DNA of 64,000 nt from Candidatus Cloacimonetes bacterium HGW-Cloacimonetes-2. Its GTDB lineage: Bacteria; Cloacimonadota; Cloacimonadia; Cloacimonadales; Cloacimonadaceae. The position numbers and the translations under genes were made by a program. The notes beneath the pieces are model-generated. The model did not search any database, was not told the DNA's origin, and saw only the letters and a list, made by a program, of their open reading frames with translations. The stretch is from contig PHBP01000002.1 of assembly GCA_002842035.1 (NCBI GenBank), positions 186,001 through 250,000 of the forward strand, read 5' to 3'. Shown in pieces: positions 55,418 through 57,605 of this stretch. The stretch's first letter is position 1. Every line of letters begins with the position of its first letter.

Positions 55418-56197
55418 ATGAAAACAATAGCTCAAATCGCCAAAGAACTATTCGGAGATTCACACCCCTGCGCTTGCGGTGGAGGACACGAGATTTGCTT
55501 GAAGTGTGCTGTATGCAGAGCACATGAACCAGACAGAATTTATAACGAAAGAGATGGCTTGGCATCCACGATTGATGCAACCGTACTCAAAGCTCAAGCT
55601 ACAGATATCGAGGTAAAAGAGCTTTGCTCCGTAGCTAATAAGTACCAGACCGCATCGGTATGCATAAACTCACATTTCATTGAGCTAGCCGGGAAATTGT
55701 TGGCCGGCAATCCGGTGACCTGTACAGTGATCAATTTCCCGCTGGGAGCAGGCTCAAGCGAAGCAATCCTGGCAGAAGCCTGTGCTGTTATCAAAGCAGG
55801 AATATCCGAGCTTGATATGGTTCAAAATCTTCCTGCCTTACTGGATGAGGACTACAACGAAGCTCAAGAAAGCATTGCTTTGGTAGCTGAGCAATGTATT
55901 GCTCAATCCGTATTGCTAAAGGTTATCCTTGAGACTTGTTATCTGGATCGTGAGCAGATCATCATCAGCTGTCTTATCGCAAAGAAAGCCGGTGCTCATT
56001 TTGTAAAGACATCCACGGGGTTTGGCACGGCAGGAGCTACTGCAGAAAATATTGCATTAATGCGCGAAACCGTCGGACCCAAACTTGGGGTTAAAGCATC
56101 CGGGGGAGTCCGAACGAGAGAACAAGCTCTGCTTATGATAGATTCCGGAGCTAGCCGAATCGGTGCTTCTGCAGTAAAAGAGATACTGGAAGTATAA
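55418..56197 (+). CDS. deoC: Deoxyribose-phosphate aldolase with a cysteine-rich N-terminal extension
   Basis: Cleaves 2-deoxyribose-5-phosphate to acetaldehyde and glyceraldehyde-3-phosphate in deoxynucleoside breakdown. The TIM barrel runs from about residue 45 to the end, with the Schiff-base lysine K197 in VKTSTGFGTAGAT, DMVQNLPALL, and GVKASGGVRT. Residues 1-40 are unusual: C18, C20, C27, C30 and C33 with H24 and H36 (CACGGGH...CLKCAVC) look like a metal or Fe-S site not present in ordinary DeoC. The acetaldehyde product could feed the AOR pathway (inference). Confidence 0.9.
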   Translation: MKTIAQIAKELFGDSHPCACGGGHEICLKCAVCRAHEPDRIYNERDGLASTIDATVLKAQATDIEVKELCSVANKYQTASVCINSHFIELAGKLLAGNPVTCTVINFPLGAGSSEAILAEACAVIKAGISELDMVQNLPALLDEDYNEAQESIALVAEQCIAQSVLLKVILETCYLDREQIIISCLIAKKAGAHFVKTSTGFGTAGATAENIALMRETVGPKLGVKASGGVRTREQALLMIDSGASRIGASAVKEILEV

Positions 56198-56198
56198 A

Positions 56199-57605
56199 AT
56201 GCAAGTACAAATAGCCGGATTCAATATTGATAAAAGCCTGATCGACAAGCTTGATACAGAGCTCGCTACTCCCGAGGTAATCTCGGCAGCCTATGCCAGA
56301 ATCAGTAGAAGCAGCAAAGACGTCACTGAGCTCCGCACTGAGGCTATGGAAGAGCTTGCCAAAGCCAGAGCCTCCAATGATAGGATAATCTTCGAGATGG
56401 GGCATTCGTCGATTGCCGAACACGCGGTCTTCAATATCGATATCATTGGTATATCCCGAGTATTAGCAGAATTGATTCAATCTGTGCGTTTAGCTTCATT
56501 TACCGAGAAATCACAACGTTATGTGACTCTTGATGAAGACTTTGTAATCCCCAAGGAGCTAGACGATCCAAAGCTGGACTGGTTTAAAAAACGTTATATC
56601 GCTTACAGCAAACAACTTTTTGCCGAGTATCAAAAGACCTACGATAAGCTCCTCGTTTATTACAAAAAGAAGTTTCCAAAGCTAAACCAGCGTGAGCTCG
56701 AAGGCAAAGCAAAGGAAGACGCAAGATATATCCTCCCGATGTCCACTAAGACGCAAATGGGGATCACTATCAATGCTCGCAGCTTGGAAAACCTGCTACG
56801 CAAGCTATACCACAGCCCCTTGCTCGAAGCAAAGGAACTTTATGATTTGCTGTTTACGGAAGTAAGTAAGATCAGTCCATCCCTTATCCGTTATACAGAG
56901 AGTACTGGCCTAAAACCAAAGCTAAGATCAATCAATAAGTCTTTACCTATCTGGAAAGAACAACTCGATGTAGATAAACCACTCAAAGTTGTTTCATTTA
57001 CCCCTGATCCGGACGAGTTGATTCTGGCAGCTTTATTAACTGAAGAGCTATACTATGGCATAGAAGATATAAAGGAACTGATTTATGATATGTCATGGGA
57101 TGAGCAGGACAAGCTTTGGCGCGACGTTTTTGAGGGCATCCAATCCTGGCACAAGATGCCCAGAGCCTTTGAACTTTGTGTGTTCTGCTTTGAGATTATA
57201 ATGTCCGAATCCTGCTGGGCTCAGTTCAAGCGCCATCGGATTGGTACAATCATCAAAGAAGATGAGGTTTACGAACCCAGCCACTTTTACCAGGAAGCAA
57301 TTCGCAAGGTGAAGAGAACAGAGATATGGGAAACCCAGATAGAGAAAGTCCATTACTTCCGAGACCAATTGAGTTTTCATAATGAAGAAGCAGCCCGATA
57401 TATCAGAATGAACACTGATACTGTAAAGATACTGGCTCAGTTCAATCTCCGAGAGATCTACCACTTCGTGCGCTTACGCTCAGATGATCACGCTCAAGCT
57501 GAGATCCGCAATATTTCAGACCTGATGCGCACGTATGTCCGCGTCTTTGCCCCGTTTGCCTCCAGATACCTCTGCGGGAAGAGTGAATTCTGCATTAATG
57601 ATTGA
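56199..57605 (+). CDS. Tandem ThyX-family protein (flavin-dependent thymidylate synthase)
   Basis: 468 residues formed by two ThyX-like halves. ThyX makes dTMP from dUMP with FAD and methylene-tetrahydrofolate; its motif is RHRX7S. In the first half (to about 235) the equivalent segment is SVRLASFTEKSQRY (95-108): the S, E and SQRY are kept but RHR is SVR. In the second half (about 275-468) RHR is kept at 345-347 but the serine position is D355. Other ThyX blocks: GHSSIAEHAVFNI, and LREIYHFVRLRSDDHAQAEIR (split over 417-437). One active site could be built from both halves. No thyA was seen. Confidence 0.85.
   Translation: MQVQIAGFNIDKSLIDKLDTELATPEVISAAYARISRSSKDVTELRTEAMEELAKARASNDRIIFEMGHSSIAEHAVFNIDIIGISRVLAELIQSVRLASFTEKSQRYVTLDEDFVIPKELDDPKLDWFKKRYIAYSKQLFAEYQKTYDKLLVYYKKKFPKLNQRELEGKAKEDARYILPMSTKTQMGITINARSLENLLRKLYHSPLLEAKELYDLLFTEVSKISPSLIRYTESTGLKPKLRSINKSLPIWKEQLDVDKPLKVVSFTPDPDELILAALLTEELYYGIEDIKELIYDMSWDEQDKLWRDVFEGIQSWHKMPRAFELCVFCFEIIMSESCWAQFKRHRIGTIIKEDEVYEPSHFYQEAIRKVKRTEIWETQIEKVHYFRDQLSFHNEEAARYIRMNTDTVKILAQFNLREIYHFVRLRSDDHAQAEIRNISDLMRTYVRVFAPFASRYLCGKSEFCIND

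Follow-up and report, generated by a model that had tools for sequence, protein, structure and literature searches.

A double-domain ThyX of a Cloacimonadota genome with its active-site residues divided between two halves

Crystal structures of ThyX, the FAD-dependent thymidylate synthase, show one active site to be composed of residues of three subunits (PMC6514825). A gene of Candidatus Cloacimonetes bacterium HGW-Cloacimonetes-2 raises the question of what becomes of such a site when two ThyX domains are carried by a single polypeptide chain and neither exhibits the signature motif in one piece. The gene lies in the window, i.e., the whole stretch of 64,000 nucleotides that was analysed (contig PHBP01000002.1, positions 186,001 to 250,000 of the forward strand), and the coordinates of its features, counted from the first letter of the window, are collected in Table 1.

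A double-domain gene and the thymidylate supply of its host

The first-pass annotation had taken the open reading frame for a double ThyX, and profile searches bear this out, PF02511 matching it in two separate stretches and TIGR02170 agreeing. Taken as a whole, the protein scores 201 bits against PF02511 (E 2.1e-59; curated cut-off 24.8) and 139.2 bits against TIGR02170 (E 1.3e-40; curated cut-off 87.9), which places it among the ThyX proteins, and with two Thy1 domains by PF02511 in one chain it corresponds to a domain-duplicated ThyX. Compared directly by BLAST, the two halves reach only an E of 0.033 over 69 aa and, as such, their mutual homology rests on the common Pfam model. The AF2 prediction of the single chain is confident (pLDDT 88.2, pTM 0.85), and the top Foldseek matches of the predicted chain are ThyX chains (probability 1.00, TMt of about 0.7), i.e., the predicted fold is that of ThyX. 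The opposite strand across the region holds no gene, its frames being either broken by stops or overlapping.

Respective to thymidylate supply, the host genome (2.5 Mb in 14 contigs, 99.55% complete) contains neither a match to PF00303, i.e., no ThyA, nor any further match to PF02511, i.e., no second ThyX; the absence of thyA had been named in the first-pass annotation as a check on its reading, and it holds. The gene product is probably the only de novo thymidylate synthase of the cell. Besides DHFR, the genome encodes a thymidine kinase, so that thymidylate synthesis need not be essential where salvage is available. At the level of the phylum, the protein was matched in 104 of 125 genomes, and full-length ThyA was present in five, four of which are without the double ThyX (Fisher p = 0.003, uncorrected for relatedness or incompleteness), two further PF00303 matches being short and partial and left out of this count. 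The sole genome of the phylum sample combining full-length ThyA with the double ThyX is G104. A single-domain ThyX occurs in three genomes of the phylum, accompanying the double ThyX in two (G041:C101:88386-88952 and G057:C7:3895-4494) and ThyA in the third (G059:C487:4678-5214). As for the neighbourhood, the thyX gene is probably co-transcribed with the deoC gene upstream, a homolog of which is found in the flanks of 42 of the 80 best among at least 555 relatives in named genomes.

Table 1. Features of the double-domain thyX gene and its upstream neighbour (window positions; fractions refer to the 67 double proteins unless stated otherwise; Mtb, M. tuberculosis; Tma, T. maritima)
Feature	Positions	Strand	Basis or conservation
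deoC (deoxyribose-phosphate aldolase-like)	55418..56197	+	named by sequence resemblance; ends 1 nt upstream of thyX
Double-domain ThyX (FAD-dependent thymidylate synthase), 468 aa	56199..57605	+	intact ORF; PF02511 and TIGR02170, two stretches each
Half 1 Thy1 domain, residues 23-227	56265..56879	+	PF02511, 132 bits, E 2.2e-38
S71, equivalent of Mtb Ser71 (subunit-B role, FAD)	56409..56411	+	alignment to 3gwc; 67/67
R87, equivalent of Mtb Arg87 (subunit-C role, dUMP)	56457..56459	+	66/67
S95-V96-R97, half-1 degenerate RHR position	56481..56489	+	RHR in 0/129 homologs
E103-K-S105-Q-R107-Y108, serine/SQRY side of the ThyX motif (subunit-C role)	56505..56522	+	S105, R107, Y108 67/67; E103 66/67
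R176, equivalent of Mtb Arg172 (dUMP phosphate)	56724..56726	+	alignment to 3gwc; 67/67
R194, equivalent of Mtb Arg190 (subunit-B role, FAD)	56778..56780	+	67/67
Half 2 Thy1 domain, about residues 263-452	56985..57554	+	PF02511, 77.5 bits, E 1.5e-21
R322...E325, half-2 side of presumed defective site	57162..57173	+	E325 58/67; co-lost with R97, R418 in 9
R345-H346-R347, half-2 RHR (subunit-A role, FAD)	57231..57239	+	67/67
D355, half-2 former catalytic-serine position	57261..57263	+	13 residue types in 129 homologs, freely variable
R418, half-2 equivalent of Arg190, presumed defective site	57450..57452	+	58/67; co-lost with R97, E325
R427, equivalent of Mtb Arg199 / Tma Arg174 (dUMP activation, subunit-A role)	57477..57479	+	67/67

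Division of the active-site residues across the family

The active-site residues were followed in (i) a cellular set of 129 homologs, corresponding to 22 clusters at 50% identity, and (ii) 67 double proteins, comprising 49 cellular representatives of less than 60% identity and 18 from viral-contig and phage records, unclustered among themselves. From their record titles, the best 80 of the at least 555 relatives confirmed by the scan belong to Cloacimonadota, Aminicenantes, Acidobacteria, Smithella and other deltaproteobacteria, Goldiibacteriota, WOR-3, Latescibacterota, Delongbacteria and others. On the viral side, no match was obtained with the single query P0001 and 21 loci were retrieved with the alignment A2 as query; many of these viral contigs may be host DNA.

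When half 1 is aligned to 3gwc, positions 71, 87, 95-97, 105, 107, and 108 are numbered identically, while Arg172 corresponds to R176, Arg190 to R194 in half 1 and R418 in half 2, and Arg199 to R427. Half 1 exhibits TEKSQRY in all 129 cellular homologs and its RHR position is occupied by 22 different triplets, RSR being the commonest (40/129) and RHR never occurring. The loss of the Arg199 equivalent from this half is alignment-dependent: with a one-residue gap, its partner would be position 202, where 44 of the 67 double proteins have R and another nine have K. Half 2 exhibits RHR in 129/129 cellular homologs and its serine position is occupied by D (31), K (19), G (18), S (18) or others, the equivalents of Arg107 and Tyr108 varying just as freely; the Ser71 position of this half is mostly R, not S.

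It results that the contiguous RHRX7S motif is absent from either half, half 1 reading SVRX7S and half 2 RHRX7D, and that the full set of FAD and dUMP residues is present in the polypeptide once both halves are counted. In 129/129 cellular homologs as in 67/67 double proteins, half 1 possesses S71, R194, S105, R107, Y108, and R176, and half 2 possesses R345, H346, R347, and R427, i.e., the complementary split is found in every double protein. This is how the motif had originally been read, namely as divided between two jointly complete halves, one keeping the serine, the glutamate and SQRY with SVR replacing RHR (S95-V96-R97 and E103 to Y108), the other keeping RHR with D at the serine position 355 (R345-H346-R347 and D355), and the division proves invariant over both sets. 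As judged from these sequences, the split has a long history and a very wide distribution, and is not the decay of one genome. Single-domain ThyX of the same phylum carry both residue sets in one chain.

Another set of residues varies jointly, namely R97 in half 1 with E325 and R418 in half 2, all three being kept in 58/67 double proteins and all three being lost in the other nine (L146 and L148-L155), which retain every other site residue. As the nine resemble one another and form one group, the co-loss may have happened just once.

Some members of the family are unusual in other respects. The proteins L146 and L148-L155, from IMG/VR contigs, are divergent double ThyX of 25-29% identity, without a basic residue at the half-1 RHR position (SNT, SNE, ANS and like) and with RH-N-R in half 2 of those displayed. 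In a gut phage record without annotation (MT835736.1, 16326-18080; L138), a double ThyX of about 470 aa exhibits the same split, with EFR...SRRY in half 1 and RHR in half 2. A subgroup of one family (L048-L051) comprises long double ThyX of about 510 aa, with about 30% identity in half 2 and a one-residue insertion after the half-1 arginines (ARRIG.AYTEKSQRY). Of note, the locus L156 was considered as a half-1-only gene and rejected, being an ordinary single-domain ThyX of a viral contig with RSR; since this single-domain protein also has RSR, an altered RHR alone is no proof that half 1 is inactive.

Subunit roles and proposed assembly

According to a review of ThyX crystal structures, and in M. 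tuberculosis numbering, subunit A contributes RHR 95-97 together with Arg199 to a site, subunit B contributes Ser71 together with Arg190, and subunit C contributes Arg87, Ser105, Arg107, and Tyr108 (PMC6514825); Arg172 was placed on the dUMP phosphate by docking (PMC9571937). Transposed to the double protein, half 2 would fill role A and half 1 role C, and a 222 tetramer made of a fused pair would therefore comprise four sites, two of them complete and two defective. Role B likely falls to half 1 as well, because S71 and R194 are invariant and E325 and R418 are lost in 9/67 proteins. Half 1 would thus probably fill both the B and C roles and, there being one half 1 per chain, a complete site would need two chains, in other words each complete site probably requires both fused chains of the pair. 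The original proposal of one site per fused chain, formed from both of its halves, would thereby stand by count but not as a site built within one chain, half 1 probably supplying also S71 and R194.

From the division of residues, we infer how the chains assemble, that they are active and how three contributions make up each site, as follows. A ThyX gene would have been duplicated and fused into the double gene, the products of which would associate in pairs as a ThyX-like pseudo-tetramer. In a productive site, half 2 would provide the RHR clamp on FAD together with the dUMP-activating R427, one half 1 the dUMP-binding loop (R87, E103, S105, R107, and Y108) together with R176, and the half 1 of the other chain S71 and R194, while R97 from half 1 would join E325 and R418 from half 2 in the other site of the tetramer, the catalytically defective one, each dimer of fused chains comprising two of either kind. 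It is likely that the protein is a working FAD-dependent thymidylate synthase of this build, i.e., a fused-pair pseudo-tetramer with two complete and two defective sites. Since R97, E325, and R418 are kept together in most double proteins and dropped together in one group, a second ligand site would seem to have been preserved at first and later given up as a whole; that the defective sites are kept as a non-catalytic nucleotide pocket, for a structural FAD or a regulatory nucleotide, is conceivable but doubtful.

The same residues bear on other ways of reading the protein. Should half 2 fill the Ser71/Arg190 role, with the intact sites pairing the other way, the presence in it of E325 (58/67), N416 (59/67), and R418 (58/67) would be accounted for; this appears improbable with R rather than S at its Ser71 position in most proteins, with S71 and R194 in half 1 of 67/67, and with E325 and R418 missing from nine proteins that otherwise keep all site residues. 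Were half 1 alone catalytic, in a homotypic assembly where half 2 serves only as scaffold or regulator, its higher PF02511 score, the location there of most of the motifs kept, and the RSR of the single-domain viral-contig ThyX L156 would be in agreement, but half 2 exhibits RHR and R427 in 67/67 proteins, just as it would if these were catalytic, and the nine divergent proteins without a basic residue at the half-1 RHR position retain those of half 2, which makes it very improbable. That thymidylate synthesis is no longer the function of the protein, which would have decayed or been repurposed in a cell living on thymidine salvage, is hardly credible: while the thymidine kinase gene and the deviation of both halves from the classical single-chain motif speak for it, all site residues are fully conserved over many phyla, the genome is without ThyA or other ThyX, and the double ThyX and ThyA nearly exclude each other within the phylum.

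Known systems and significance

Compared to the single-domain homotetrameric ThyX/FDTS, e.g., T. maritima TM0449 and M. tuberculosis ThyX (PF02511, TIGR02170), the fold and the residues are the same; where those enzymes have the full set in each chain and four alike sites, the double ThyX has the set divided and is predicted to have only two complete sites. The ThyX of C. trachomatis, dealt with by Griffin in 2005, is reportedly unusually long and biochemically active, and part of the double-ThyX picture may already be known. For most Chloroflexi, ThyX has been stated to contain "a domain duplication" which "has not been characterized," as in "a few other species" (PMC3224940, 2009). As far as this text goes, the architecture is the same, and the Chloroflexi protein most likely belongs to the same family, the divided motif found here being unmentioned there. 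Beyond PMC3224940, no description of the residue split or of a fused ThyX was found in the literature searched, with most subscription papers outside it.

Two other enzymes offer partial parallels. The monomeric dUTPase of herpesviruses is likewise duplicated, with motifs from separate ancestral subunits forming one site, but its fold is unrelated and the motif moved within one chain of a monomer (PMC8961515). In the deoxyhypusine synthase of trypanosomatids, DHSc/DHSp, active copies and degenerate ones form a tetramer in which two sites are active and the other two dead, but this unrelated enzyme is encoded by separate genes and the catalytic residues were lost in one paralog (PMC7581365).

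In practice, a motif scan of one half alone would label such an enzyme inactive, which calls for caution. With two unlike halves, the residues on the FAD side and those on the dUMP side can be altered separately in one gene, and the double ThyX would permit direct tests of the subunit roles, of half-of-sites behaviour and of FAD binding by the defective sites. More generally, it would represent a natural and very widespread case where an enzyme with a site shared between subunits has been duplicated and fused, and its catalytic residues divided between the copies.
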